47,416 bases of DNA from assembly GCA_902514875.1 (NCBI GenBank), contig CABXSY010000010.1:1-47416 (forward strand), read 5' to 3'. The notes below the pieces were generated by a model that was given only the letters and a program-made list of their open reading frames with translations, searched no databases and was not told the DNA's origin. Shown piece by piece: positions 6,314-44,091 of the stretch (position 1 is its first letter; every line of letters starts with the position of its first letter). The position numbers and the translations under genes are program-made. The stretch comes from an uncultured Alphaproteobacteria bacterium (GTDB taxonomy: Bacteria; Pseudomonadota; Alphaproteobacteria; HIMB59; GCA-002718135).

Positions 6314-7160
6314 TTTACTAAAATTCATTTTTAGTATTTTTTTATTATTTCCATTTCACCTCAATGCAGAATTAATATTTGAGGATAATTTTCCAAAAGA
6401 TATGCAAGGTATTTGGAGTGATGATTGTGATGCAGAATATCAAGTATTCATAATATCAAATAACACAAGTATGTGGATTGACAAGACATATGTTGGATTT
6501 AATGTATCAAAAACATCAAAGGTGCAAGATTGGTCAGTTTATAAATGGGGTGAACTAGATGGAAGTTATTATTATTTTTTAAAAAAAGATGGCGATAATT
6601 TACTTGAGATTACTGCTCCTGATGATTGGGATGGTATAGATTATTCTTTTTTAAATTCATCAGATTATTCTCTTTATGAAAAATGTGAATCAATCCCTAG
6701 TGTCTTTCAAATTATTTATGGGGAAATTATCAACTTAATGAATTCTCAATTAATTGAAACGTGTAATAATGATAGCAATCCTGCAAATTGTATTAATGAA
6801 ACTTTTACATTTTTAGATGTGTCACAAGATAATGAATTATCTGTAGCAGAATTAACACGTGCAGCAAGAATAGCTATTTATTTTACCTTTATCGATAAAA
6901 GACAAGACGAAGACAGAGACATAGGATTTGCAACTTATACAACCACATCACTAATATTTCCTGCATTATCAAAAATATTAATTGGTAATTATGATTATGA
7001 TAATTCAAATACAATTTCTTTAAAAGAAATATATACGGATCGTATTGATACATTAGACTATCAAAATTTATTTAAAGAAAATTTAAAAGGATTAGACCCA
7101 GAGGAATTAAGACGATTAATTGAAAACTTAGATTTTTTAAAATCTTTAATGTTAAATTAA
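6303..7160 (+). CDS. Secreted protein with two EF-hand calcium-binding loops
   Basis: The 285-residue product starts with a Sec signal peptide ending near NAELIF (cleavage around residue 22). The N-terminal half (30-130) contains a small beta-rich region with Trp and Asp (MQGIWSDDCDAEY), possibly a lipocalin-like or unknown domain. The C-terminal half has two EF-hand loops with canonical spacing: D172-S174-D176-E178-S180-E183 and D231-D233-S235-T237-S239-E242. It should bind Ca2+ in the periplasm or outside the cell. The ATG lies inside the SlyB-like gene, with an 11-bp overlap, so coupled translation and a shared envelope role are likely. Not assigned to a named family. Confidence 0.75.
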   Translation: MKNNLLKFIFSIFLLFPFHLNAELIFEDNFPKDMQGIWSDDCDAEYQVFIISNNTSMWIDKTYVGFNVSKTSKVQDWSVYKWGELDGSYYYFLKKDGDNLLEITAPDDWDGIDYSFLNSSDYSLYEKCESIPSVFQIIYGEIINLMNSQLIETCNNDSNPANCINETFTFLDVSQDNELSVAELTRAARIAIYFTFIDKRQDEDRDIGFATYTTTSLIFPALSKILIGNYDYDNSNTISLKEIYTDRIDTLDYQNLFKENLKGLDPEELRRLIENLDFLKSLMLN

Positions 7161-7169
7161 ATTAGTATG

Positions 7170-7199
7170 TTGACTTTTAAGTATAATTTTAATTATAAA
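7170..7199 (+). promoter_or_regulatory. Candidate sigma-70 promoter
   Basis: TTGACT (7170-7175) and TATAAA (7194-7199) are separated by 18 bp, just after the EF-hand gene and 5 bp before the 27-codon ORF. If used, transcription would start at or near the ATG of that ORF, giving an almost leaderless message. AT-rich background makes chance -10 matches common. Confidence 0.4.
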
Positions 7200-7204
7200 T
7201 ACAT

Positions 7205-7288
7205 ATGAACAAGAGAAATTTATACGCAGCTATTGCGATAGTATGTATCTTTGCTGCTTTAAATTTAACTATATATTTTTTCTATTAA
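7205..7288 (+). CDS. Single-span membrane microprotein (27 aa), putative
   Basis: ATG at 7205 opens a 27-codon frame: a basic start (MNKRN) followed by one hydrophobic span and a final FFY. It ends 3 bp before the next ORF, and a promoter-like sequence lies immediately upstream. Basic-then-hydrophobic layout fits a genuine membrane microprotein, but a frame this short can arise by chance in AT-rich DNA. It has no recognisable family. Confidence 0.35.
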   Translation: MNKRNLYAAIAIVCIFAALNLTIYFFY

Positions 7289-7291
7289 ATT

Positions 7292-7495
7292 ATGGTGATC
7301 AAAAGAAAATCTAGTATTTATAAAAAATTATATGAAATTAATGGTCAGAAAATGATGTTTGGTCACGATAATATACATTTTAAAACAATTAACTTACCTA
7401 CAAAACAGAGATACAAAAATCTATGCAGTAAATTTGGTTTAAAAAAAATTAAATCTTCCAGTAAAAAAAATTTTCAAATAATTAACATTAATTAA
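7292..7495 (+). CDS. Small basic protein (67 aa), unknown
   Basis: Sixty-seven residues, strongly basic (Lys-rich), with a central segment HDNIHFKTINLPTKQRYK and a lysine/serine tail. There are no hydrophobic spans or cysteine pairs. It lies 3 bp after the microprotein ORF, and its TAA directly abuts the GTG of the renalase-like gene. This gap-free packing is the main argument that it is translated. The charge suggests nucleic-acid or ribosome contact, but nothing specific was recognised. Confidence 0.5.
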   Translation: MVIKRKSSIYKKLYEINGQKMMFGHDNIHFKTINLPTKQRYKNLCSKFGLKKIKSSSKKNFQIININ

Positions 7496-8473
7496 GTGAA
7501 AAATATTGCAATAATTGGAGCTGGGATGACTGGCTTATCTCTTGCTTATAATCTTCAAGAGCATAATATTACAATTTTTGATAAATCATGGAGACCGGGA
7601 GGAAGAGTATCAACTAGAAAGCATGATAATTATCTTTTTGATCATGGTGCACATTATCTATCGACAAATCATTCTGTAAATCAATTAAATGAAGTAATAA
7701 GTAGATATAACTTGGGACAAGTAATAGAAATAGATTTTGCAACTGATTATTTAAAAAATAAAAAAACTAGAAAAAAAATTATTATTGATCAAAATGGAAT
7801 TAATTCTATTCCAAAATCTATTTTTGATAATATCAAAGTAAATAGTTATTTAAATTCAAAAATAATTAAAATTTCAAAAAATAGTAATGATCTCTTCTCG
7901 CTATTTTCTGAAAAGGAAGAATTTAAAGATTTTGATTATGTTTTAATTTGTATACCGTATTTACAATCAAAAGAACTTTCAAAAAATTTGATTGATTTTA
8001 CTCAGATTGTTAGCGAACCATCATATGATCCAATACATACTGTAATGTTAAGTTATAAAGATATTAACAACATAAATATTAAAGCAGGATTAAATCTTCA
8101 TAAAGATATTAGTTTCTTTATGAATCAAAATATCAAATTTAATGAATTATCTGATGATTGTTGGGTATTAAATATGAGTTCTGAATATACGAATAACAAT
8201 ATTAACATTGATAAATCTGATCTAGAAAAATACGCTCAATCAATATTTGAAAAAACATTTGGTATAAAAAATGAGATAAGTTTTATTAAATCACACAGAT
8301 GGCTATTTGCGCAAACAAAAGTCAGTTATAATAGTATTTCAAAAAAAAATTGGATTAATTCTAAGGATAACAAATTATTTTTAAGTGGAGACTGGGTTAT
8401 AGGAAAAAGTCTAAGTGATGCATGGGATGCAGGTGAAAAATTATCTCATTATATTAAAATTTTATCAGTTTGA
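7496..8473 (+). CDS. Renalase-like FAD/NAD(P)-dependent oxidoreductase
   Basis: Start is GTG, immediately after the preceding TAA. The protein (325 aa) has an FAD-binding GAGMTGLS (residues 8-15), then the signature PGGRVSTRK (34-42) with FDHGAHY. The C-terminal FAD-contact motif is LSGDWVIGKSLSDAWDAGE. This is the layout of the COG3380/renalase branch of amine-oxidase-like flavoproteins. Human renalase oxidises isomeric dihydro-NAD(P), and bacterial relatives do the same, so metabolite repair of damaged NAD(P)H is a sensible role. It is the last gene of a three-ORF unit, and a stem-loop with a T-run follows its stop. Family is confident, substrate inferred. Confidence 0.82.
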   Translation: MKNIAIIGAGMTGLSLAYNLQEHNITIFDKSWRPGGRVSTRKHDNYLFDHGAHYLSTNHSVNQLNEVISRYNLGQVIEIDFATDYLKNKKTRKKIIIDQNGINSIPKSIFDNIKVNSYLNSKIIKISKNSNDLFSLFSEKEEFKDFDYVLICIPYLQSKELSKNLIDFTQIVSEPSYDPIHTVMLSYKDINNINIKAGLNLHKDISFFMNQNIKFNELSDDCWVLNMSSEYTNNNINIDKSDLEKYAQSIFEKTFGIKNEISFIKSHRWLFAQTKVSYNSISKKNWINSKDNKLFLSGDWVIGKSLSDAWDAGEKLSHYIKILSV

Positions 8474-8475
8474 TA

Positions 8476-9666
8476 TTAAGTATTAAAATATTTTTTAATA
8501 TTTTTAGCTGCCTGTCTTATTCTTTGGGTATTTTCTACTAGACCAATACGTACAAAACCCTCACCTCCTTTTCCAAAAGCTAAACCAGGTGCTACTGCAA
8601 CGTCGGCATTTATCATTAAATTTTTGGAAAATTTCATGGAACCCATCTTTTTAAATTTTTTTGGCAAAGGAGCCCACACAAACATTGATGCCTCAGGAGA
8701 TGGAATTTTATCCCAACCAGCTCTTTCAAAAGACTCTATTAAAACATCTCTTCTTTTTTTATAAATCTCTCTTATTTCTTCTACACATTTTTGAGATCCA
8801 TTTAATGCAGCAGTGGCTGCTACTTGCACAGGAGTAAAAGCACCATAGTCTACATATGATTTAATTTTTGTTAATGCCTCAATTAAAGTTTTGTTTCCAA
8901 CAGCAAAACCTATTCTCCATCCTGCCATTGCATAAGTTTTAGATAAAGTCGTAAATTCAACAGCTATGTTTTTAGCTCCATTAACTTCTAATATTGATGG
9001 AGGCGGATTATTACCAAAGTAAATTTCAGAATAAGCTAAATCGGATAAAATATAAACTTGATATTTTTTTGCAATTTTTACTAATTCTTTATAAAAATCT
9101 AAATCAACTATCTGAGCTGTTGGATTTGACGGAAAAGAAACAATAATAACTTTTATTGAAGAATATTTTTTTAAATTATTAACTATATTTAATAAAAATT
9201 TATTTTTATCGAACTCTCCATTAAAAAATGTTTGCAATGGTGTTAATTTAGCTCCAGCAATAATAAAACCGTATGGATGAACAGGATATGATGGATCAGG
9301 ACATAATATTCTATCTCCTCTTGAAGTTATAGCTTGTGCCAAATTTGCTAAACCTTCCTTTGAACCAATTGTTACTATAATTTCACTTGATGGATTTAAA
9401 TCAACATTAAATCGTTTTTTATAATATTTAGCTTGGGCTTTTCTTAATCCATTAATACCTTTAGAAACTGAATAACGTCCAACACCTGGCTTATCTATAA
9501 CTTCTTTCAATTTCTGTCTTATGTGAAGAGGTGTTGGCATATCAGGATTACCCATACCAAAATCAATAATATCCCTACCCTCAGATCTCAGTTTCATTTT
9601 TAATGAATTTATCTCCCCAAATATATATGGGGGGAGTCTATTAATTCTTTCAAATTTAGATTTCAC
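8476..9666 (-). CDS. AlaC-like pyridoxal-phosphate aminotransferase
   Basis: A 396-residue class I/II aminotransferase starting at a GTG. Fold-type I marks are intact: MGNPDMPTP (38-46), Tyr/Pro-rich CPDPSYP (122-128), SFPSNPTA (177-184), SDLAYSE (208-214), the PLP lysine K243 in LSKTYAMAGWRIG, and a C-terminal FVRIGLV carboxylate-binding Arg. The SKTYxMAGWRIGF block and overall length resemble E. coli AlaC (glutamate-pyruvate aminotransferase). Alphaproteobacterial homologues are often labelled LL-diaminopimelate aminotransferase. Alanine synthesis from pyruvate and glutamate is the likeliest reaction. It stands alone, convergent with the renalase-like gene and divergent from the YugP-like gene. 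Confidence 0.85.
   Translation of the reverse strand: MKSKFERINRLPPYIFGEINSLKMKLRSEGRDIIDFGMGNPDMPTPLHIRQKLKEVIDKPGVGRYSVSKGINGLRKAQAKYYKKRFNVDLNPSSEIIVTIGSKEGLANLAQAITSRGDRILCPDPSYPVHPYGFIIAGAKLTPLQTFFNGEFDKNKFLLNIVNNLKKYSSIKVIIVSFPSNPTAQIVDLDFYKELVKIAKKYQVYILSDLAYSEIYFGNNPPPSILEVNGAKNIAVEFTTLSKTYAMAGWRIGFAVGNKTLIEALTKIKSYVDYGAFTPVQVAATAALNGSQKCVEEIREIYKKRRDVLIESFERAGWDKIPSPEASMFVWAPLPKKFKKMGSMKFSKNLMINADVAVAPGLAFGKGGEGFVRIGLVENTQRIRQAAKNIKKYFNT
8481..8505 (+). terminator. AT-only stem-loop with T-run
   Basis: TATTAAAA and TTTTAATA form a perfect 8-bp stem around TATT, followed by TTTTT. It starts 8 bp after the stop of the renalase-like gene and lies within the last codons of the convergent aminotransferase. 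The all-AT stem makes it weak by usual criteria. Confidence 0.35.
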
Positions 9667-9749
9667 TTTTTAAGCAATAATTAATTATTGATAATAATAC
9701 TAGTTTAAATAAAATTGATTTTTAATAATATTATTCCTATTTTTATATT

Positions 9750-10454
9750 GTGATTAAATTATTTTACTATTTTTTACCATTTATTGCTCTCTTTCTACCA
9801 AGTTTATGGGTAAATTATATTTTAAAAAAATATAATAAAATTTTACCTGATATGCCCTTTACTGGCAGAGAACTTGGAAAAAAAATACTTGAAGAAGAAG
9901 AAGTCACGAATGTATCAATTAATCCTATTCAGCAATTAGATCATTACAATCCTAAAGATAAAAAAATACATATAGCGACTGATAAACTTGACAAAAAAAG
10001 TATAACAAGCATTGCAGTTGTTGCTCACGAAATTGGTCACGCAATTCAAGATAAGGAAAAATATAAACCACTTATCCTTAGACAATCATTAATTGAAAAA
10101 ACAATGATATTTCAGAGAATTGGTTCATTTTTATTAATTATAGGACTACCATCAATATTTGCCTTCACTAAAAGTCCATTTATTACCCTTATTGCTGCGA
10201 TAATAATAATGGGATGTTTATCTACAAATGTGTTAATCCATTTGATTACTCTTCCTGTAGAATTTGATGCAAGTTTTAAGAGAGCTTTACCAATACTCAA
10301 AAGATATGTCCCTAAAGAGAATATGTATCAGTGTAAATCTGTTTTAAGAGCTGCTGCATTGACATATTTAGCTCAATCAATTGTGAGTATATTTAGATTA
10401 AAAATAATACTGTTATCTTTTATTAATATTTTTAAATCAATTATAAGAAGATAA
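9750..10454 (+). CDS. YugP-family membrane zinc metallopeptidase
   Basis: This 234-residue protein starts at GTG with an N-terminal span (residues 2-22). It then has the zinc-protease motif HEIGHAIQ (approximately residues 93-100; two His plus catalytic Glu) preceded by VVA, and two further spans around 125-170 and near the C-terminus. Segments PDMPFTGRELG, DHYNPKDKKI and LPVEFDAS are typical of YugP-like Zn_peptidase_2 proteins. The third zinc ligand would be the Glu of the LPVEFDAS block. It is a likely inner-membrane quality-control peptidase; the natural substrate is unknown for the family. It has a short intergenic hairpin after the stop. Confidence 0.85.
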   Translation: MIKLFYYFLPFIALFLPSLWVNYILKKYNKILPDMPFTGRELGKKILEEEEVTNVSINPIQQLDHYNPKDKKIHIATDKLDKKSITSIAVVAHEIGHAIQDKEKYKPLILRQSLIEKTMIFQRIGSFLLIIGLPSIFAFTKSPFITLIAAIIIMGCLSTNVLIHLITLPVEFDASFKRALPILKRYVPKENMYQCKSVLRAAALTYLAQSIVSIFRLKIILLSFINIFKSIIRR

Positions 10455-10458
10455 TATT

Positions 10459-10482
10459 TTTCTCTTTAAATAAAAAGGGAAA
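10459..10482 (+). terminator. Weak stem-loop after the YugP-like gene
   Basis: TTTCTCTTT can pair with AAAGGGAAA (one G-U pair) around a 6-nt loop, followed by TTTATT. It sits in the 48-bp gap between the metallopeptidase and the 870-aa gene. It could reduce read-through or stabilise the upstream mRNA end. Evidence is structural only. Confidence 0.3.
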
Positions 10483-10502
10483 TTTATTAAGTTAGTTAAT
10501 TA

Positions 10503-13115
10503 ATGAATTTAAGCGAAAAAATATCTTTAATACTTGTAGATAAAGGTTTTTCTTTGTCTCCGAAAAAACATACTGAAGATTTAATAAATTCTGGTATTGA
10601 ATTTCATAAAAGTAATGAAGACATCAAAATTGCAGAACAGCATGGTATTGCAGATCAAATTTTTATACTTGTAAAAGGTGAAGCAGAATTTGTAAAATAT
10701 CATAATAATGTTTTTTATAAGTTAGCAACATTAAAAAATGCTGGATCACCTCTTGGTATTTCAGGGTTAAATGCACCAGGTAGATATATGTCAGATATAT
10801 TTATTAAAGGTAGTTCAGAATATATTTCTATCAAAATAGAAAAATTAAAAGAATTGGAAGAAGCTGATCCTGACTATGCAAGTTTTTTCTATTCTTTTTT
10901 ATTATTTGAATCAATTAATTTAATATGGTCATCTCGTAATTTAGAAAAACCTATTGAACAAAAAGAAATTAATTTAGCAGATGGTGTTAAAACTGGTGGA
11001 GATATTGTAAATACCAAAAGAATAAAGAATTCAGCATTTTTAGCTTTTCTAGATGATAAAGATTTAGATGAACTGATAAATTATGCAAACATTAGATTAT
11101 TTTCTGCCGGTGAATATGTAACTCTAGAAGGTACAAAATCAGACGGAATAAATATTTTGTTAAAAGGTAAGGTTGAAGCCTCTTTTACAAATTCTAAAGA
11201 TGATCAATTAGAAAATAATTCAAGATCAATAGCTAGAACAGGAGTGGCATTATCATTATCATCAGGATTGCATGATATAGAATCACCCTACTCTTTGAAA
11301 TCTACGCGAGATACAACAATTTTAAAATTTTCAAACGAATTTATTGATAATCTAATTAAAACTAATCCAAAATTAGCTATAAAATTTTTTAAAAGACAAT
11401 TATGGCAATTAGGTCGTTATGTTCAAAGCTCAACTGGTTTGACAACATATCCTGCTAAAAATGAAAAAGAGTTTTTTAAATATTTACTAGAAGATAATTC
11501 TTCAAAAATACCAAGTAATTCAAAACTTTACACAATTCCTCATTTGTTAGAAAATCATTTAACTCATTCTTTAGCATTTGATACGATTTATGATTTAATT
11601 GTTACAGGTAATGATGAAGAAAAATCTATAGCTAGTCTCATGATAGATGCACTGAGTGGTTTAGAGAGAAAAAATAGATTTTTTAAACAACTAAATAAAA
11701 TCTACAACAGGGTAGCAACATCATATGAGTCAATAAATAAACAAGCATTACAAAAATTAACAAATTCAGATTTTACAAAAGCTTTTGATCAGGTTCCTTA
11801 TGTTATTAAAGGTATGGAGAATTTACCAGAAGAACCTACAAACATATTTTTTTATAATCACTTGGCAAGCATTGAAGAAAATGGTTTAGCTAATGGACAT
11901 CAATTTAGTATAGATAGTCATTTTATAAGTGCAAAAATTTTATTTCCAAAATACGGTGATGGTGGTCAAAGAATTGCTCGATATTCTAGAAATACAGAAT
12001 TTTGGAGATATAATTATTATGAAAATTTAGATTACATTTTTGTTCATACACCAGAGTCAGACTATTTAAATGAAACTCAAGACCAAAAAAAGAAAAGGAA
12101 AAGTAAATTATTTATCGAAACTCAGAATATTTTTGATCAAAACAGACCTTTAGTTATTGCACCAGAAGGAACATCTGAAACTGAAGATAATTTAACTCCA
12201 AATTCCCCAGGTCCTTTAAAGCCAGGTGCATTTTTATTAGCAGACCAATTAAAACCTGAACCACTACTTGTTCCAATAGCATTAGCTAATTTTGATTATT
12301 CAATCTCTGATACTATTTATTCTGCAGTAATTAAAGAACCAATTAAATTAAAAGATTTTGTAAATGATATGAAAAATAAAAAAGAGTTAGAAAATTTTTT
12401 ATCTAAGTATAGAAAAACTTTTAAAACTTATGTTGAGGAAGCAATTGAATTAGCAAAATCTGCTTCAAAATATAAAATTAATAATAAAGATGTAGTTAGC
12501 AACTTAAATTTAGTCAGCCCTATTGAAGAAGAATTCGAAGCAGATGTGAGAGAATTAGAAATTAAATTACATACAGATCAATATAAAAATAATAAAATAG
12601 TCTTATTTGGAAGTTCGACATTTAGAGATTGGGAAAATGCAAAAACTGATTTGTCATTTGATAGTTTATTAAATTTAGGATTCGGTGGATCCACATTAGT
12701 TTCATGCCGTACATATTTTAACAGAATAGTAGTCCCAAATAACCCTGATAAGATGATTTTTTATGCAGGAGATAATGATATTGGCAGTGGAATGAGTGCT
12801 GAAGATTTAGAAAATGAATTTTTATTATTTGCTTCTGAAGTTAATGAAAAATTACCCCATACATTATGTTTTTTTGTATCCATTAAACCAAGTGTATTTA
12901 GGAATAATTATTTAAATACAATTTTAGATGCAAATGAACGAATTAAAAACAAAATTGAGAATTTTAGTCAATGGCGCTATATTGATCTATGCTCTCCTAT
13001 GCTTGATGCTGGATTTGAAAAATTTTATTCAGAAGATCCATTACACATGGATGTACTTGGTTATAGTCTCTTAAGTAAGTTAATAAGAGATGAAATATCA
13101 AAGTTTACAATTTAA
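10503..13115 (+). CDS. cNMP-binding-like / PlsC-like acyltransferase / SGNH esterase fusion protein
   Basis: An 870-residue protein with no signal peptide. Residues 30-125 and 175-305 each look like a cyclic-nucleotide-binding beta-roll (QIFILVKGEAEFVK; GINILLKGKVEASF with FSAGEYV). Neither shows a clear phosphate-binding cassette, so ligand binding is doubtful. Residues 430-620 resemble PlsC-type acyltransferases: NH at 452-453 (in place of NHxxxxD) and EGT at 555-557, followed by PLKPGAFLLA. Residues 695-865 are an SGNH hydrolase with GSS at 703-705 (nucleophile), GDND at 756-759 (block III Asn) and DPLH at 845-848 (catalytic Asp/His). Phospholipid or lysophospholipid remodelling under allosteric control is the natural guess. 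It is transcribed alone. Confidence 0.75.
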   Translation: MNLSEKISLILVDKGFSLSPKKHTEDLINSGIEFHKSNEDIKIAEQHGIADQIFILVKGEAEFVKYHNNVFYKLATLKNAGSPLGISGLNAPGRYMSDIFIKGSSEYISIKIEKLKELEEADPDYASFFYSFLLFESINLIWSSRNLEKPIEQKEINLADGVKTGGDIVNTKRIKNSAFLAFLDDKDLDELINYANIRLFSAGEYVTLEGTKSDGINILLKGKVEASFTNSKDDQLENNSRSIARTGVALSLSSGLHDIESPYSLKSTRDTTILKFSNEFIDNLIKTNPKLAIKFFKRQLWQLGRYVQSSTGLTTYPAKNEKEFFKYLLEDNSSKIPSNSKLYTIPHLLENHLTHSLAFDTIYDLIVTGNDEEKSIASLMIDALSGLERKNRFFKQLNKIYNRVATSYESINKQALQKLTNSDFTKAFDQVPYVIKGMENLPEEPTNIFFYNHLASIEENGLANGHQFSIDSHFISAKILFPKYGDGGQRIARYSRNTEFWRYNYYENLDYIFVHTPESDYLNETQDQKKKRKSKLFIETQNIFDQNRPLVIAPEGTSETEDNLTPNSPGPLKPGAFLLADQLKPEPLLVPIALANFDYSISDTIYSAVIKEPIKLKDFVNDMKNKKELENFLSKYRKTFKTYVEEAIELAKSASKYKINNKDVVSNLNLVSPIEEEFEADVRELEIKLHTDQYKNNKIVLFGSSTFRDWENAKTDLSFDSLLNLGFGGSTLVSCRTYFNRIVVPNNPDKMIFYAGDNDIGSGMSAEDLENEFLLFASEVNEKLPHTLCFFVSIKPSVFRNNYLNTILDANERIKNKIENFSQWRYIDLCSPMLDAGFEKFYSEDPLHMDVLGYSLLSKLIRDEISKFTI

Positions 13116-13129
13116 GCTTAAATTAAAAA

Positions 13130-14152
13130 TTAAATTTTAATTTCTTTTCTTAGCTTATCAGATTTATATGAATTGAAAACTAATGATAGACTCTTTATGT
13201 TATCTTCACCACTGGTTTCGTGTTCAATGTTATTTATCAGTGAATCAATGAAATGTTTGTGTGTATTGATTACGCTTTCTTGAATTTGATCCCAAGGCTT
13301 TGAAATCCATTTATATTTCTTTGGTTTTCCATCATAAATCTTCTTCTTATTATTTTTGTGTAAAGTAATTTTGTAATTGTAGTCCAAATCAATTGAACCG
13401 TTAGAGAATTCTAAATTAACTAGTGTTTGAGCAAATCTATCTGGTTTTTTTATTGAAGAAATAGATGCATCAACAATAGTAATACTTTTATTTTTATTTC
13501 TTATTAGGGATATAAAATCAGTTTCACCTTTAAATTTATTATTTGTATTTTGATTTACTGTATAAATACTTTTTGCTTCTCCCATAAAAAATCTGCTTAA
13601 ATCAAATAAATGGATGCCTACGTCTAAGGTTAAATACTCTTTTAAATTATATAAATATGTCTGATTGGTATATCCAACAGGATTTGCGTGTCTAAAAGAT
13701 ATCTTGGCATAATGTGGTTTAGTTAACTTCTCTATATTTATAATTTCTTTTAATTTTAATAGAGGGCTTTGCCATCTAAAATTCTCATGAACCATAAGTG
13801 GCGTTTTATTTTTTTTATAAAAAGAAACAATTTTTTTCGCATTTGATAAATTTTCAGCAAATGGCTTTTGTATGGAAGTTGGAATTTTATACTTAGATAA
13901 AATTTTACCAATATTTAAATGTGTCTCCATTGTTGTTACAACATCAACAAAGTCAATTTTATGTTTTTTTAACATTAATTCTATGGATGAATAAGAATGT
14001 AAAATATTAAATTTAGATTTAAATTTATTAGCTTTTTTTATATCTAAATCACAAACACATATTATTTCTATATTTCTTAATTCTTTCCAAGCTAAAATAT
14101 GATTTTCAGCAAAGAAACCACATCCGATTAATGCTCCTTTTAATTTTTTCAT
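13130..14152 (-). CDS. Gfo/Idh/MocA-family dehydrogenase, probable D-apiose dehydrogenase
   Basis: A 340-residue protein with the N-terminal Rossmann fold LIGCGFFAENH (residues 8-18), acidic VCDLD after beta-2, and the family motif QKPFAENL in place of EKP. H182 in the DVGIHLFDLSRF block is the conserved catalytic His region. The opening GCGFFAENHILAWKEL resembles the D-apiose dehydrogenase ApsD, as far as I recall. The upstream partner looks like D-apionate lactonase, so oxidation of D-apiose to apionolactone with NAD is the proposed reaction. It is the last gene of a three-gene operon, and its ATG overlaps the upstream TGA (ATGA). Family is certain; the apiose assignment is inference. Confidence 0.8.
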   Translation of the reverse strand: MKKLKGALIGCGFFAENHILAWKELRNIEIICVCDLDIKKANKFKSKFNILHSYSSIELMLKKHKIDFVDVVTTMETHLNIGKILSKYKIPTSIQKPFAENLSNAKKIVSFYKKNKTPLMVHENFRWQSPLLKLKEIINIEKLTKPHYAKISFRHANPVGYTNQTYLYNLKEYLTLDVGIHLFDLSRFFMGEAKSIYTVNQNTNNKFKGETDFISLIRNKNKSITIVDASISSIKKPDRFAQTLVNLEFSNGSIDLDYNYKITLHKNNKKKIYDGKPKKYKWISKPWDQIQESVINTHKHFIDSLINNIEHETSGEDNIKSLSLVFNSYKSDKLRKEIKI

Positions 14153-15963
14153 TTATCTTCTATAAATTTAATTTCTAATGGTTCGAACGTATATGGATTT
14201 GTATCTTTTTTAAAGTTAAAAAAAGAAAAATCATTATTAAAAATATCAGTATAATTTTTTAAATTTAGCTTATATTGATAACTAAAATTTAATTCAGAAA
14301 TATTTATTTCTTTTTTTTGTTTTGAAGAATTTACAAATAAATAATACTTTTTTTCATTTAGTACAATTTTTAATCCATACACTTCATTAATTGGATTAAA
14401 TTTAAAAATTTCAGAATTTGACAATGAAATAAGAAAATTATTTAAATGATATAATGGTTTTTTGGTATTATCTTTATTTAATATTCCATGATGTCCATAA
14501 ATAGAATTAATAGTAAAAAATTTTGATTCTTTATTTATTGATTGAATAAAAATTGCTAGTGTCCAAGTAAGTGAAAATAATTGATCATGTCTTGGATCGC
14601 TATCAGCCATTTCTAATCTTATTTTCTTTTTGTTACTTACAGGACTTTCGCCATACGGATTGAAATGCATACCAAGAGATATTGGGCCAATATGAACATC
14701 AGTACTATTAGAAAAATTTTTTAAAGTTTTAAGGATATAAGGTATGGTTTCAGGTGTATTTAATACACCAAAATCACTAGAATCATGAACAATTGGAGTG
14801 AAGGAAAAACTAACCAAATCATAAAACATTTTTGGTCTCTTTCTATTTAATTCTGTAAAATTAGTAACCATTCCAGAAACAATTAGGCTATTAGAAAACA
14901 TCTTTTTAGCAATTTTATAGTATTCATTTAATTCTGGAACATTAGGCCATTCTCCAGCAGGTTGAAAACTATTCAAATATATTTTTGGACAAATTAAAAT
15001 TTTATTTAATTTAATAGTATTTTCGCTTATAAAATTATAAATTTTTGTTAATTCCTCATGAGGGTCATTAGTATGATCAACCAAAGCCACAAGAAACACT
15101 TTGTTATCAGATCTTGAAGTTATTCTTTTAGAATCTTCAGTAAAATCAATAATATAGTAATAATAATCAAAGTTGTTTATTAAATTATCATTTGGAAGAA
15201 TTGGAGAATCAATTTTTATACCAATTTTAGGAAATTTATAAGAAGTAGTATGATCAATTTTTACAATATTCTTAGATGGAAATGATCTCTGTTTTTTATT
15301 TAAAAAGTCTATTTTTACAGTTTGTGAAAAATTAGAACCTCGTTTTTCTAAATAAGGAAAAGGATCTAATAAAGAGCCACTATATATTTTGTAAGAAGCG
15401 TCACCCCAGTTTCTTTGATCCTCCATTTCAAATAAAATACCTGCGAAATTTATATTAACTATCAAACTATCGTCTAAAGTATAAGCAAGATTTTTAAATT
15501 TAAAGAATGGTTGATCGGGACTTATAAATTCTGGAAATTTTTTTTCTTCTTTTACGTCATTTTCACTTGTTACAATGATATTTGAACCAACATGATATTG
15601 TAATGGAATTAATAAATTAAAGCCTATTCTATTAGTCCAAAAATCATTTAAGAATTCTCCTTTTGAAGATAGAGTTATAGATTTTTCAGAAAATAATATA
15701 GAATTTGTTGTTTTAAGAATTTCATTTATACCATATTCTAAATCGAATATATATTCTAAAGATGTATCAAGTTTCTCTTCATAATTTAGAATTTTAGGAT
15801 TATAATTATTCCAATTTTTGTCTCTTACCAAGAATGATATCATCTTTAAAATTTGAAAATTTTGAAATGTTATATTTCGAAAAAAAAGATTATCTTTTAA
15901 TAAGGTAAAATTATTATTTGATGATTTTATAAATTTTTCTTCTAATAATTTAGGGTTATACAT
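14149..15963 (-). CDS. Probable D-apionate lactonase (ApnL-like)
   Basis: A 604-residue soluble protein without a signal peptide. Stretches PLQYHVGS, FPEFISPDQPF, the very characteristic FEMEDQRNWGDASYK (around residue 180), TELNRKRP and GMHFNPYGESP match my memory of the D-apionate lactonase ApnL of apiose-using bacteria, which has a TIM-barrel-like middle and a C-terminal beta domain. It would open apionolactone to D-apionate. Evidence is motif recall plus the adjacent Gfo/Idh/MocA gene of ApsD type. It overlaps the upstream TTC38-like gene by 8 bp and the downstream dehydrogenase by 4 bp. The enzymes that take apionate further are not in the window. If the recall is wrong it is a large unknown hydrolase-like protein. 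Confidence 0.6.
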   Translation of the reverse strand: MYNPKLLEEKFIKSSNNNFTLLKDNLFFRNITFQNFQILKMISFLVRDKNWNNYNPKILNYEEKLDTSLEYIFDLEYGINEILKTTNSILFSEKSITLSSKGEFLNDFWTNRIGFNLLIPLQYHVGSNIIVTSENDVKEEKKFPEFISPDQPFFKFKNLAYTLDDSLIVNINFAGILFEMEDQRNWGDASYKIYSGSLLDPFPYLEKRGSNFSQTVKIDFLNKKQRSFPSKNIVKIDHTTSYKFPKIGIKIDSPILPNDNLINNFDYYYYIIDFTEDSKRITSRSDNKVFLVALVDHTNDPHEELTKIYNFISENTIKLNKILICPKIYLNSFQPAGEWPNVPELNEYYKIAKKMFSNSLIVSGMVTNFTELNRKRPKMFYDLVSFSFTPIVHDSSDFGVLNTPETIPYILKTLKNFSNSTDVHIGPISLGMHFNPYGESPVSNKKKIRLEMADSDPRHDQLFSLTWTLAIFIQSINKESKFFTINSIYGHHGILNKDNTKKPLYHLNNFLISLSNSEIFKFNPINEVYGLKIVLNEKKYYLFVNSSKQKKEINISELNFSYQYKLNLKNYTDIFNNDFSFFNFKKDTNPYTFEPLEIKFIEDK

Positions 15964-17203
15964 ATAATTTTGAAACAGATTTATAATTATTATATTCTAA
16001 TATTAAATCTGATTTATTTTTTTTATATTTTGTATTTTGAATTAAACTTAAAAAAATCAGTTCTCGTTGAGCAAAACTACCTCCAAGGTATTTAAATTGT
16101 GACTTAATTACATCTTCATTTAATAATTCATTTGTTTTAATGCTATAAATAATTGGTTTTAGAAAATTAATATAATTTTCTTTAAAAGAATTTTTTAAAT
16201 AATTCCCCTCCATCCTTTCTTCAAGTTGTTGAAAATAATCTTGATCATTATAGTATAAGTAATAAAAAATAAGATGATAATCAATGAAAGGAAGTATGTG
16301 TTGATTTTTAAAATATTCAGCATAATCTTTTAATTTATCCATTCTATCTTTAATATCCACTCCCTTGTAATGAAGTCTTAATAAAAAAGAACAAGCATTG
16401 CAAAAATCTAAGTAAAAGATTTCTGATGAAGAGAAATAATTATCAAATAGTTTTAAGCTTTTCTCATATTCTTGATTGTAGAATAATATTAATGATTGGT
16501 GCCACCATATATGTCTTTTTATTGGTCCGTAAATTGACCAATTAATTTTATTGAAATTATCATTTTTGATAATTGAGTCGTTATTCTCATTATCGTGAAC
16601 ATGTAAAAGAGCATGCCAACTCCATAAATCATTGGATGATTGTTTTAGTGAATTTAAGGCTAGAACCTTAGCTTTATCAATTACATTATTTTCTTCAAAT
16701 GCATAGCTAGTCATCCCTAATAGTAAATTATAATGTTGGTCATTTTTGGACCAATTACTTAGTATCTCTTCATGTTTGTTTAAAAAATTATCATCTATGC
16801 CTAAGAAAATGTTATTAAAATGAAACAATCTAATAGCAAAAATATCTTTGGGATTATCTTTTATAATTAATTCCAATTTATTTAATAAATTTTTTAAATC
16901 ATTTTTAATCCAAAGATTAACTATCTCTAAATATTGATGAAAATAATTATTTACTTTATCAGTAGTAATAGATTGGAATGTTTCTCTAGCTAATGAAATT
17001 TTATGTATATCTCTAGAAAAAAGTAATAAAACTGTTTTTAATAATTTTGGAGCATTAAATTCTGGATTTTTTTTAATTAATTTATTTGTTTTATAAAGAG
17101 CATCTTTCTTAAAATAAATATATGAATCAATACATTCTTTAAAACTATTTATTTCGTCATCTTTATTACTATCTATCCATTTATAGAAATAATTATTTTG
17201 CAT
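15956..17203 (-). CDS. TTC38-like tetratricopeptide repeat protein
   Basis: A 415-residue helical protein. The central part carries the pattern of the TTC38 family: GMTSYAFEENNVIDKAKVLA, then NDLWSWHALLHVHDNE, then the WWHQSLILFYNQEYEKSLKLFD segment (about residue 225-250), with conserved His and Trp pairs. TTC38 proteins are TPR-like solenoids of uncertain activity that often accompany sugar or cofactor genes in bacteria. Here it is the first gene of the operon with the lactonase and dehydrogenase, overlapping the lactonase start by 8 bp. That suggests a job in the same pathway. No signal peptide and no catalytic motif that I can defend. Confidence 0.7.
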   Translation of the reverse strand: MQNNYFYKWIDSNKDDEINSFKECIDSYIYFKKDALYKTNKLIKKNPEFNAPKLLKTVLLLFSRDIHKISLARETFQSITTDKVNNYFHQYLEIVNLWIKNDLKNLLNKLELIIKDNPKDIFAIRLFHFNNIFLGIDDNFLNKHEEILSNWSKNDQHYNLLLGMTSYAFEENNVIDKAKVLALNSLKQSSNDLWSWHALLHVHDNENNDSIIKNDNFNKINWSIYGPIKRHIWWHQSLILFYNQEYEKSLKLFDNYFSSSEIFYLDFCNACSFLLRLHYKGVDIKDRMDKLKDYAEYFKNQHILPFIDYHLIFYYLYYNDQDYFQQLEERMEGNYLKNSFKENYINFLKPIIYSIKTNELLNEDVIKSQFKYLGGSFAQRELIFLSLIQNTKYKKNKSDLILEYNNYKSVSKLYV

Positions 17204-17245
17204 GAACTAATAATACACATAATCTAATGATGTTAAATATTTATA

Positions 17246-18136
17246 TTACGAATTAATATTTAGTCTCTTCCTTGTAATTTCTTTATTTAAATGAAGTTCC
17301 CTGTATGAAATTAAAAGTACACCACAAAAGATTACAGACGCACCTAACCAAGTATAAAAATCAGGTTTATCACTAAAGACAAAATACCCAATTATTGATG
17401 AAACTACCAAACCTAAAAATGAATAAGGTTGAGTCATAGTTACATCAACTAATTTATATGCATGATTTAATGCAATATGTAAGATTGTTCCTGACATTGC
17501 TGCACATAATATTAAAATAATTGTTTTTAAGCTTGGTTGATCCCAAAAATATATAACTAATGGAAATGAAAAAAGACTCATATAAACATACTGATGTGAT
17601 AATATTGTTATAGCACTATCATTCTTAGATACTTTTTTAGTTAAGATAATAACTACTGACCAAATTAATGATGAAATAAGTGCCATATATATTCCAATAG
17701 AAATATCTATAATACCTGGTCTCAATATTATTAACATTCCTAAAAAACCCATCACTAAAGCAATTGACCTATATAAATATATTTTTTCCTTTAAAAATAT
17801 CACTGCTAAGATTGTAACAATAATTGGAACTATAAAATGAATGGCTGTCATTTTCTCTAATGGAAGCATAGCTAAAGCTGCAAAGCCAAGAAGCATTGCA
17901 GGTAAATTTAATGCTGAACGTACAATATGAATTTTTAAATTTTTAGTACTAAATACTTTAAATTTTGTTTTTAGAATGTAGGGGGTAATGATTAAAAAAC
18001 CAAAGAAAAATCGTAAAAAACCCGTTGTAAATACATTTAATTCTTCTTGAGCTAATTTTATAAATGTACCCATAAGCGTACCAAAAATAATAGATATAAT
18101 AATTAAAAAAATTGCAAATTGATTATTGTTTAACAA
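17246..18136 (-). CDS. EamA/DMT-family transporter
   Basis: 296 residues with ten hydrophobic spans arranged as two EamA repeats. Diagnostic segments are the loop before span 5 (FLKEKIYLYRSIALVMGFLG) and its copy near the end of repeat two. The start is TTG; an AGGA seven bases upstream supports it. No substrate can be read from sequence: members move amino acids, amines, nucleosides or metabolites, usually outward. It is the first of five EamA genes within about 9 kb and follows the apiose-type operon on the same strand with a 42-bp gap, so it might belong to the sugar region or to the transporter cluster. Confidence 0.88.
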   Translation of the reverse strand: MLNNNQFAIFLIIISIIFGTLMGTFIKLAQEELNVFTTGFLRFFFGFLIITPYILKTKFKVFSTKNLKIHIVRSALNLPAMLLGFAALAMLPLEKMTAIHFIVPIIVTILAVIFLKEKIYLYRSIALVMGFLGMLIILRPGIIDISIGIYMALISSLIWSVVIILTKKVSKNDSAITILSHQYVYMSLFSFPLVIYFWDQPSLKTIILILCAAMSGTILHIALNHAYKLVDVTMTQPYSFLGLVVSSIIGYFVFSDKPDFYTWLGASVIFCGVLLISYRELHLNKEITRKRLNINS

Positions 18137-18233
18137 ATAATATTCCTAACTAAAAAGAATTAAGATAATGATATCATAATTTTTCCTTATTTATATCTCT
18201 ATTAAAACAAAATTTGATTATATTTTGAAAACT

Positions 18234-18332
18234 GTGGCACTTATTAAAAGAATAGTTCTTTTTTTCATAACATTAATTTTCATTATAATTCTCCTTGTAG
18301 GTGCCAAACTTCATTTTAAGATTAGAAAATGA
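18234..18332 (+). CDS. Single-span membrane microprotein (32 aa) coupled to yjbQ, putative
   Basis: A GTG at 18234 (or TTG at 18225) opens a frame with KR, a 20-residue hydrophobic span and the basic tail KLHFKIRK. Its TGA overlaps the yjbQ ATG as ATGA, the classic coupling arrangement. This layout suggests a real membrane microprotein or a leader that helps translate yjbQ. No good Shine-Dalgarno is visible, so it stays putative. Confidence 0.4.
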   Translation: MALIKRIVLFFITLIFIIILLVGAKLHFKIRK

Positions 18333-18748
18333 TAAATTTACAAGATGAATTGATAATTTCTAATAATGGACAAGGAATGTATGAAATTACAAATAATATT
18401 CATGACTGGATTGTTAAAAATAATATTATTAAAGGTCAGCTAAATTTATTTATACAACATACCTCTGCTTCATTAACAATCATGGAAAATGCTAGCCCTG
18501 ACGTTTTAGAGGATATTAATTCTTTTTTTCAAAAAATAATTCCTGAAGATTCTTCATTATATAAACACGGTTATGAAGGAGATGATGATATGCCTGCACA
18601 CATAAAATCTATGCTTACTCAAACTTCATTAACAATTCCTATAAACAACAAAGAAATGAAATTAGGTATGTGGCAAGGAATATATCTTATTGAACACAGG
18701 TACAGCAGGTACAAAAGAAAAATAATTTTAAGTTATATAGGTGAGTAA
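18329..18748 (+). CDS. YjbQ-family (UPF0047) protein, secondary thiamine-phosphate synthase activity
   Basis: A 139-residue protein with the family marks FIQHTSASLTIMENASPDV (residues 43-61), HGYEGDDDMPAHIKSML (about 82-98) and GMWQGIYLIEHR near the end. Members form a trimeric beta-barrel with conserved His residues, and E. coli YjbQ shows weak thiamine-phosphate synthase activity; the true role is unsettled. The ATG overlaps the stop of a putative 32-aa membrane ORF. The stop is one base away from the end of the convergent MFS gene. Family assignment is secure. Confidence 0.92.
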   Translation: MINLQDELIISNNGQGMYEITNNIHDWIVKNNIIKGQLNLFIQHTSASLTIMENASPDVLEDINSFFQKIIPEDSSLYKHGYEGDDDMPAHIKSMLTQTSLTIPINNKEMKLGMWQGIYLIEHRYSRYKRKIILSYIGE

Positions 18749-41447: not shown

Positions 41448-41537
41448 GGAGAGATGGCTGAGCGGTTGAAAGCACTGGTCTTGAAAACCAGCAACGGGGC
41501 AACTCGTTCGTGAGTTCGAATCTCACTCTCTCCGCCA
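41448..41537 (+). tRNA. tRNA-Ser (anticodon TGA)
   Basis: A full class II cloverleaf with encoded CCA. Acceptor GGAGAGA pairs with TCTCTCC. D stem GCT/AGC, anticodon stem CTGGT/ACCAG around CTTGAAA (anticodon TGA, reading UCN codons). The long variable arm has AACG/CGTT. T arm is GTGAG-TTCGAAT-CTCAC, discriminator G. The strand and the long arm identify tRNA-Ser. The 3' 75 bases are repeated at 43867-43941. Confidence 0.95.
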
Positions 41538-41546
41538 TATTAAAAG

Positions 41547-42116: not shown

Positions 42117-43769
42117 TTACAACTTTTTCATCTCTTCATTATATTTTAGTCCTAGAATTCTTAATTCTTCTTGAATTATTCCCAACTCATAAATAGTGTT
42201 TGAAAAAAAGGTATCTACATTCATATAACTATCAAAATAATTTGAATAATCTGAGAATTCTGTAATAAAAGGATAATTTTCTTCTAAATTTTTATATTCG
42301 TAATAAAGTCTTTCATAAAGTTCCAGTTGAAGATAAAATTTATCAAACATTTGAGAAGAAATTTGCAATACACTATCATTATTTCTCAGTTTATTAAGTA
42401 TATTAAAAATATATTCTTCATATTGTATTATTTTCTGATCAGCAAATTTAAAAGCTAAATCTATGTTATTATGCGCAACTTTATTTTCACGCAACAAAGT
42501 AAGATAGAAAATCGGCGCATAATCAGTTCCATATTGATAAACATCATATAAAAAATTTAAACAATTTATGTGTAATTGATATAATTCAGTTGATATTTTA
42601 GTAATAGTTAAAGTTGGACTTTGGTCACTAATAGTTAAATTTTGATTAATTTTAATTAAAGATTGTTGATGTTTCAAATCATTCAAGGATGAAGAATATT
42701 CTAAACTAACTAATTTATTTAAAAGATCAGTATTAGGATCGTCTGAAACACTTTTTACAGTTTCAGAATAAATAGAAAATTCATTTTCAAATTCAACAAA
42801 TAAATTTTCAATATAATATTCAAATTTACTTAAAATATAATTATATCTTCCATCCATCCAATTAGAAAAATCTTTTCTTTCATAAGATTTGTATTTATTT
42901 TTTATCTTATAAATTTTTTCATTTAATATTTTTGAACTATTATTAAAATTATTATAAAAATTAGTTAAATCAATATTAGCATTTTGATATTCATTAATGT
43001 TTGTATACATTTGGGTCATTAATTCAGAGCGAATTAACGTAATTTCTTGTAAAAGATCAGAATAGTAATTCTGAATTTGTATTAATTCTGCAACATTTCT
43101 TGTAAATTCATTTTCAAAATTATCACTATCTTCACCATATACATTTTCATCACCAAGTAATTTAGCTAAATCTTCCAAGCTATATCTAGGAAATATTTTA
43201 ATAAAATTTTCTAAATCTTCATTTGAAATTATTTTATCACTAAATATACTTATTGTAGCAAATCTATTTTCAGGAAGTAAAATTACTGCTTGGTTTTTTA
43301 TAATATCATTTGAATTTTCATAAAAATAATCATTTTCTTCAAATTTGATATTAAAATTGCGAGTATAAATTCGATATCCATCAATCCAAATTTTTTGAAA
43401 TTTATCTTTATTATTCTCTAATTTATTGTTTATAGAACTTAAAAATTGTTCTTTTGTAAAAATATTCTTTTTATTACTTTGGATTATAAGCATTGTTGGA
43501 AAAACTTTTTCAGATATTTTATCCAAGTATCCATTTTCAACCCACATTTCGTGAAAAACTTCATCATTATTGTAAGTTTCTATGTGCTTATTATTAGTTT
43601 TGTTGTAAATTTTTTGCTGTGATACACTATCAATTTTTTGGAATGAAAATGGAGCACTTACTGTAATATCTACATCTTCACTTAAAAGATTGTACGTGTT
43701 TGCTAATAATTTATATGAAAAAAGAATTAGAAAAAAATTAAGTAATGTTATTTTTGTTAAATTAATCAT
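42117..43769 (-). CDS. Large exported coiled-coil protein (550 aa), unknown
   Basis: The N-terminus has a Sec signal peptide (hydrophobic core about 8-20, LLANTYN cleavage-like). The next 180 residues look globular (DVDITVSAPFSFQKID, VFPTMLIIQSNK, NRFATISIF), and from about residue 220 long amphipathic helices with Asn, Tyr and Glu repeats continue to the end, likely coiled-coil. No known family. First gene of the islet unit. The 3' neighbour is a small secreted protein, so a surface or periplasmic structure made by the islet is possible. Composition is very rich in Asn, Lys and Tyr, like the rest of the window. Confidence 0.65.
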   Translation of the reverse strand: MINLTKITLLNFFLILFSYKLLANTYNLLSEDVDITVSAPFSFQKIDSVSQQKIYNKTNNKHIETYNNDEVFHEMWVENGYLDKISEKVFPTMLIIQSNKKNIFTKEQFLSSINNKLENNKDKFQKIWIDGYRIYTRNFNIKFEENDYFYENSNDIIKNQAVILLPENRFATISIFSDKIISNEDLENFIKIFPRYSLEDLAKLLGDENVYGEDSDNFENEFTRNVAELIQIQNYYSDLLQEITLIRSELMTQMYTNINEYQNANIDLTNFYNNFNNSSKILNEKIYKIKNKYKSYERKDFSNWMDGRYNYILSKFEYYIENLFVEFENEFSIYSETVKSVSDDPNTDLLNKLVSLEYSSSLNDLKHQQSLIKINQNLTISDQSPTLTITKISTELYQLHINCLNFLYDVYQYGTDYAPIFYLTLLRENKVAHNNIDLAFKFADQKIIQYEEYIFNILNKLRNNDSVLQISSQMFDKFYLQLELYERLYYEYKNLEENYPFITEFSDYSNYFDSYMNVDTFFSNTIYELGIIQEELRILGLKYNEEMKKL

Positions 43770-43810
43770 ACCATTTGAATGCTGTATTTATACTTTAAAT
43801 TAAATTTAAT

Positions 43811-43848
43811 ATCTACACGACATCTACACAACATGCCATTTTATGGCA
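43811..43848. repeat. Tandem 11-mers plus inverted repeat beside the tRNA fragment
   Basis: ATCTACACGAC (43811-43821) is followed at once by ATCTACACAAC (43822-43832), matching at 10 of 11 bases. Then TGCCAT-TTT-ATGGCA (43834-43848) is a perfect 6-bp inverted repeat. The tRNA fragment starts 18 bp further on. Such clustered short repeats beside an attachment core look like integrase or excisionase binding sites. Confidence 0.5.
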
Positions 43849-43866
43849 GAAATATTGGACAAAAAA

Positions 43867-43941
43867 CGGTTGAAAGCACCGGTCTTGAAAACCGGCAACA
43901 GGGCAACTCGTTCGTGAGTTCGAATCTCACTCTCTCCGCCA
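43867..43941 (+). pseudogene. tRNA-Ser 3' fragment (att-like duplicate)
   Basis: 75 bases matching tRNA-Ser from the D loop through CCA, same strand, with three changes. The 5' acceptor strand and D-stem 5' side are absent: the preceding bases do not pair with TCTCTCC. So it is not a functional tRNA. Two of the changes (T to C and A to G) keep an anticodon-stem pair, now CCGGT/ACCGG. The third breaks one variable-arm pair. Confidence 0.85.
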
Positions 43942-43974
43942 TTATTAATCAAAGATATTAATATTTTAAAAAAA

Positions 43975-44091
43975 TTAATATTTATCTTCAAGTTTATCTA
44001 CTCTTTTTTTTAAATCTTGGAGTAAAAAATAAATATAGACAATTGGCCCCATAATCATGACGCCAACTAAAAAAGCTAAAAATTCAAACAT
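43975..44091 (-). CDS. Single-span membrane microprotein (38 aa), putative
   Basis: ATG at 44091 opens a 38-codon frame with a hydrophobic span (FLAFLVGVMIMGPIVYIYF) followed by a charged helix LQDLKKRVDKLEDKY with heptad-like Leu/Val spacing. This membrane-anchor-plus-coiled-coil design suits a small membrane partner. It lies in the interval between the islet and the PQQ-dehydrogenase gene. No RBS stands out. Confidence 0.4.
   Translation of the reverse strand: MFEFLAFLVGVMIMGPIVYIYFLLQDLKKRVDKLEDKY

Follow-up and report, generated by a model that had tools for sequence, protein, structure and literature searches.

The locus raises the question of what a large exported protein of unfamiliar sequence is doing beside a tRNA gene of an uncultured marine bacterium, and how it came to be there. 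The window, by which we mean the whole stretch of 47,416 nucleotides analysed, encodes on its minus strand P1, a protein of 550 residues (42117-43769). A sequence-only reading had taken P1 for an exported protein. The open frame is indeed present, and a 547-aa homologue with 36% amino-acid identity in pairwise comparison is found in a second genome, G089, which marks P1 as a genuine gene rather than a chance frame. By reading, signal peptides could be assigned to P1, to its small neighbour P2 and to both G089 homologues, as the earlier claim of export would have it. P1 has a single cysteine in the window copy and none in the G089 copy.

Strands are predicted for the N-terminal part of P1 and helices for residues 214-549. 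Two structure predictions were obtained, both of low confidence (mean pLDDT 46.2 and 47.9). In the AlphaFold2 model, with a whole-model mean of 46.2, long helices begin at residue 214 (H214-262, H268-295, H305-343, and others), and pLDDT reaches 63-88 in the blocks 231-300 and 311-350. The helical hydrophobic moment of residues 214-549 lies above that of shuffled sequences (z 4.0 in the window, 3.7 in G089), and for residues 25-200 the corresponding values are -0.5 and -1.6. P1 had been described as a coiled-coil protein with long helices from about residue 220; the helices are reproduced in this low-confidence model, and a coiled coil or an antiparallel helix bundle would fit the predicted helical part equally well.

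Two further genes lie on the same strand, P2 (41767-42087, its ATG start picked by comparison with G089) and P3 (41573-41752), transcribed in the order P1, P2, P3 with gaps of only 29 and 14 nt; in G089, the P1 and P2 frames overlap by ATGA. P2 is the small exported partner with four cysteines that had been noticed beside P1. It has 106 residues, and the cysteines are invariant across four aligned sequences and were also seen, by reading, in four further loci (L089 and L091-L093). P3 has 59 residues with two hydrophobic stretches and corresponds to the third, small membrane protein assigned earlier to the unit. The three genes occur together, in conserved order, in both genomes that carry P1 (2/2), which answers the suggestion that their co-occurrence be checked. 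P2 and P3 are not exclusive to P1, as homologues of each are found without it. We infer a periplasmic location for P1 and P2, probably two disulfides in P2, and a role of P3 in tying both to the inner membrane.

At an E-value of 0.01, P1 matched 3 of the 110 family genomes, namely the window, G089 and one chance match, and a profile built from the two P1 sequences matched 3 of 162 genomes of the order, one of them again by chance. Two matches were rejected as chance: that in G006 (E 3.5e-4, 26% over 75 residues) has two stops in frame and sits within a conserved gene neighbourhood, and that in G032 (E 0.0047) falls inside what reads as an aldo-keto-reductase-like protein. Absence counts among the 110 genomes are soft, because only 10 of them are at least 90% complete with at most 5% contamination; the 38 tRNA-Ser loci compared below give a firmer basis for absence. 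With P1 in 2/110 genomes, chance match aside, it is not one of the housekeeping envelope proteins that all relatives keep; such an identity was the finding that was to speak against the earlier reading.

The genes are enclosed by traces of site-specific insertion. The insertion site is a tRNA-Ser(TGA) gene (41448-41537, plus strand), overlapped by an attL-like direct repeat (41463-41538, plus strand), and an attR-like copy of the tRNA end lies downstream (43867-43942, plus strand). These 76-nt repeats are 96% identical and stand 2404 bp apart, start to start, and the sequence beyond the downstream copy corresponds to what follows the tRNA at an empty site in a relative (L043). Four loci have such a downstream repeat, namely the window, G011, G098 and G017, and it was found in none of the remaining loci compared, the G089 islet included. 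Just inside the right border, a sequence with a short palindrome (43820-43848, plus strand) is common to the G011 islet and may represent recombinase arm sites. Allowing up to three mismatches, it occurs in G000 and G011 only among the 110 genomes, and the G011 islet shares this right end but lacks the P1-P2-P3 genes. Two open reading frames at this border, 43779-43961 (plus strand) and 43824-43991 (minus strand), look spurious, as they overlap the tRNA repeat.

The tRNA gene itself appears to carry a mark of the event. All 18 empty sites have a C-G pair in the anticodon stem (CACCGG..CCGGC), whereas in the window the 3' part of the gene, from the anticodon stem on, has a T-A pair (CACTGG..CCAGC), and the downstream copy retains the C-G pair of empty sites. 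The T-A variant is present in the window, G089, G011 and G017, that is, in four of the five loci longer than 2 kb; C-G is retained in the remaining one (G098) and in the 13 other occupied loci, and of two shrunken loci one (G100) has T-A and the other (G029) C-G. The insert of the window seems to have come with a tRNA 3' part of its own, and the simplest reading would be a crossover immediately ahead of the anticodon stem, the element supplying the new tRNA end. The variable and T arms also come in a second variant, seen in G089, G029 and G074; since the G074 site is empty, tRNA ends also vary without a present insert.

In order to follow the site in relatives, we compared the window with 37 other loci, taken as the best-ranked 38 minus G042; the ranking drew on the 66 of 109 other genomes that carry the flanking sugar-dehydrogenase-like gene. 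The distance from the tRNA to this gene is 187-200 bp in 18 of the 38 loci (empty site), 938-5219 bp in another 18 (occupied, with differing cargo) and 24-25 bp in the two shrunken sites. A 275-aa protein that we take, by motif, to be sulfotransferase-like is the cargo of 11/18 occupied loci (with two copies in G017), another that on the same basis is alpha/beta-hydrolase-like is found in 2/18, and the remaining five (G045, G098, G011, the window and G089) hold other sets. The locus of G017 (L063) is a tandem islet, with two complete tRNA-Ser genes and a sulfotransferase-like gene behind each of them. Extra DNA is also found on the other side of the tRNA: in L068 (G098) the transglycosylase-like gene and tRNA-Ser lie about 2.5 kb apart, and in L060 (G084) the transglycosylase-like gene was not found in the 5.3 kb examined. 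Taken together, the direct repeats, the empty site in relatives and the turnover of cargo bear out the proposal that P1 is islet cargo.

No recombination gene is present among the open reading frames of the islet, and a family profile search of P1-P3 gave no match to serine recombinases. The integrase family PF00589, matched in 87 of 110 family genomes, has no match on the window contig (C10), and the single match of the same genome lies on contig C28. A 352-aa integrase, read in this genome and in G027, G038, G095 and G021, could act in trans on the tRNA-Ser site, to which we found no link. In L113, L114, L115, L116 and L119, a 352-aa tyrosine integrase lies by a gene that reads as Sir2-like, with changing neighbours, likely a second hotspot. 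An 84-89-aa protein, typified by L045 1751-2002 and starting like KILKFPNRNSPA, was found in 9 of the 110 family genomes and is absent from the genome of the window; its relatives occur in L068, L047, L113, L117, L118, L114, L115 and L116, and it is present in several islets, including that of G089, where it lies beside P1. The L113 copy has no Pfam match.

The two islets that carry P1 were then compared with each other and with their flanks. Amino-acid identity between the window and G089 is 36% for P1, 72% for P2 and 76% for P3. Synonymous divergence is 0.89, 1.37 and 0.75 for P1, P2 and P3, and only 0.12 and 0.20 for the flanking dehydrogenase-like and transglycosylase-like genes. As islet dS exceeds flank dS, the cargo split earlier than the flanks, and the cargo of the two islets arrived separately or was replaced. 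The dN/dS ratios (Nei-Gojobori, from the single window-G089 pair, with codon bootstrap intervals) are 0.62 (0.47-0.79) for P1, 0.13 (0.04-0.26) for P2 and 0.21 (0.08-0.44) for P3. Within P1, the ratio is 0.49 (0.27-0.78) for residues 25-200, 1.24 (0.84-1.87) for 201-380 and 0.36 (0.14-0.57) for 381-550; since the interval around 1.24 includes 1, relaxed constraint suffices to account for the middle segment. The variability between strains that had been put forward as a check is therefore strong for this pair, with P1 changing fast and P2 and P3 slowly.

None of the libraries searched gave P1 a convincing match, whether Pfam, PHROGs, NCBIfam, PADLOC, PDB sequences, phages, plasmids or IMG/VR, even though family searches with P1-P3 were taken up to an E-value of 10. 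The Pfam matches are all weak (TelK_muzzle, E 2.2, for P1; YncO, E 5.2, for P3), as are those in PHROGs, whose lowest E-values are 0.1 for P1 and, over residues 4-35 (mostly signal peptide), 0.014 for P2. NCBIfam gave none for P1-P3, the PADLOC 2.0.0 defence-protein models matched none of the three, and the family searches found in them no enzyme, binding, toxin or protease effector domain. Searches with the G089 copy, with the N-terminal part of P1 and with the helper homologues likewise gave nothing over the cut-off, the best being PsiE at 0.035 for the G027 homologue of P3. Among PDB sequences there was no match to P1 as a single sequence or profile or to P2 as a single sequence, and the one match of the P2 profile (E 2.4) was judged chance. 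Pattern searches returned no relative of P1 among 8 stretches in genome_contigs, none of P1 in IMG/VR (600 stretches in one search) and none of P2 there (231); phage records held none of P1 or P2, and plasmid records none of P1.

Structural comparison was equally sparing. No Foldseek match reached E 0.001. For the N-terminal part of P1, an alpha/beta fold of the Mog1/PsbP/DcrB type is a candidate: human MOG1 appeared at rank 8 (E 0.49), the query being a low-confidence model; Pfam gave no match there, and the VIA-align comparison barely covers the region. The best VIA-align match is the synaptobrevin-Munc18-syntaxin complex, with a Z of 9.3, below the level of the tool for helical models. The ligand-binding domains of PcaY_PP (Z 7.5-8.5, 126-138 aligned, rmsd 3.9-4.1) are also below that level, and we do not claim a sensor domain. 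The original verdict of "no known family" is upheld in the libraries searched, which returned only weak or chance matches for P1-P3, and we recognised no account of a P1-P2-P3 module in the open-licence literature, seen mostly as titles and the beginnings of abstracts.

The partners of P1 lead further. At E 0.01, P2 matched 9 of 110 family genomes, strongly in the window, G089, G021 and G056, and P3 matched five, strongly in the window, G089 and G027; in genome_contigs, P2 has 7 loci, those of G089, G021 and G056 and the new L089 and L091-L093. CHAT was matched in 2/110 genomes, G027 and G056 only, and Peptidase C14 in 6/110. In G027, the P3 homologue lies 119 bp downstream of a gene for a 996-aa TPR-CHAT protein, with a Sel1-caspase gene following. 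In G056, the P2 homologue is convergent with a Sel1-SH3-caspase gene and itself lies 6 kb from a CHAT gene. The CHAT/caspase-type proteins of both genomes start, by reading, with signal peptides. Neither CHAT nor C14 was matched in G021, which has a strong P2 homologue, nor in G089 or the genome of the window (78% complete).

Other neighbourhoods are of a different kind. In L089 and L091-L093, the P2 homologue is flanked, by reading, by a small membrane protein on one side and a channel-like protein, not a caspase, on the other. The exported channel-like protein of L091 (6355-7755) resembles Neur_chan_memb at E 4.2e-5, under the cut-off; similar genes occur in L089, L092, L093 and L081, and PrsW-like membrane proteins (by reading) are found near the channel-like genes of the P2-homologue loci. 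In L122 of G095 (7114-18449), five tandem genes encode proteins with signal peptides (by reading) and common caspase-like regions at the C-terminus (280 residues, 67-78% identity, GHG and DTCYS-type motifs kept), and largely different N-terminal parts. A Peptidase_C14 match at E 1e-5 was obtained for four of them, and the array adjoins an 89-aa relative of the L045 small protein and a 352-aa integrase.

Our preferred explanation, held tentatively and at less than even chances, is that P1-P2-P3 form a modular conflict system of the envelope in which P1 is the fast-changing contact protein. The genes would be cargo of a small integrase-less islet, moved by site-specific recombination at tRNA-Ser(TGA) with a recombinase supplied in trans. 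The helical middle of P1, known from two sequences only (window and G089), would meet a fast-changing partner at the envelope, most likely a protein of a phage or a competitor, and helpers of the P2 and P3 types would pair with different large exported proteins, P1 here and CHAT/caspase proteins in other genomes. A defence or competition role is a candidate that rests on the neighbours and on the rate of change. Counting against the explanation are the four P2 loci (L089 and L091-L093) with a channel-like gene in place of a caspase by reading, the lack of CHAT and C14 matches in G021, in G089 and in the genome of the window, the lack of a PADLOC match, the interval spanning 1 for the middle of P1, the G089 islet without a downstream tRNA repeat, and a P1 set of two sequences. 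Alternatively, the module may bind a ligand, polymer or cell wall as ordinary niche cargo, an accessory envelope function without conflict, which we consider somewhat unlikely. Enzyme-like cargo at the same site in other genomes (11/18 and 2/18 occupied loci, as above) and the strong conservation of P2 would suit it; however, P1 diverges much faster than its partners and the searches found no enzyme or binding domain in P1-P3.

The high dN/dS of P1, overall and in its middle, and its presence in just 2/110 genomes would also be expected of a decaying or weakly constrained orphan that drifts with little function. We regard this as improbable, given that both copies are intact and of near-equal length (550 and 547 aa), that residues 381-550 have a ratio of 0.36 and that P2 and P3 are kept. 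A big, fast-changing exported protein by two small ones, one of them a membrane protein, also recalls a toxin aimed at kin, with P2 or P3 shielding the producer; yet an immunity protein should change along with its toxin and P2 and P3 change slowly, homologues of both exist without P1 and no toxin domain was found in family searches, which makes this quite improbable in our view. Finally, the genes might serve the element itself, in the style of a phage satellite, through its spread, its packaging or the exclusion of rivals. The small size, the lack of an integrase and the marine satellites described in the available part of the literature (PMC11389934) count for this reading, which is nevertheless very improbable: there is no convincing PHROG match and no match in phage records, the right end and the tRNA 3' pattern were each not found in IMG/VR by exact pattern, and the G011 islet shares the right end but lacks P1-P2-P3.

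Should the envelope conflict system prove true, uncultured marine bacteria would pass between their cells a rapidly evolving envelope protein, P1, whose helpers would point to exported caspase/CHAT proteins on genomic islets; caspase-type conflict would operate also in the periplasm, a compartment in which the entry of phages could be checked. The more specific proposal of an apoptosis-like or entry-blocking response that is periplasmic rather than cytoplasmic, in which P2/P3-type helpers work with interchangeable large exported proteins (caspases, TPR-CHAT proteases and P1) and spread at fixed sites on small integrase-less islets among streamlined marine Alphaproteobacteria, is speculative, and we give it little credence. 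Should the conflict reading be false, the locus is still a clean case of a very small cargo islet with an apparent swap of the tRNA-gene end, and the roughly 100 genomes at hand for the genus allow its turnover to be followed.

Among known systems, CIMEs are described, in the parts of the reports available to us (PMC5704250, PMC7563491), as bounded by att-like repeats at a host-gene end and carrying only cargo, without a recombinase gene. The window islet is alike in its att-like repeats on both sides, its clean empty site and its interior free of recombination genes; however, CIMEs are by definition decayed conjugative or mobilizable elements, and for the window islet neither such an origin nor a helper could be found. 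As far as the accessible text of PMC10872708 goes, the additive flexible genomic islands of marine and freshwater Methylophilaceae have variable cargo separated by tRNA-end repeats, as in the window, but belong to another lineage and use tRNA-Lys instead of tRNA-Ser, and tycheposons are likewise tRNA-associated cargo islands of streamlined water bacteria but are described with a tyrosine recombinase, which the window islet lacks. Caspase/CHAT effectors are described in bacterial conflict systems in the portion seen of PMC10907252. The CHAT and caspase genes beside the P3 and P2 homologues of G027 and G056 recall those systems, whereas P1-P3 are without a protease domain and the proteins here have signal peptides by reading. 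The islet is therefore of a known type, att-flanked and integrase-less, its cargo is a new orphan family in the libraries searched, and P1-P2-P3 may possibly represent a new kind of system.
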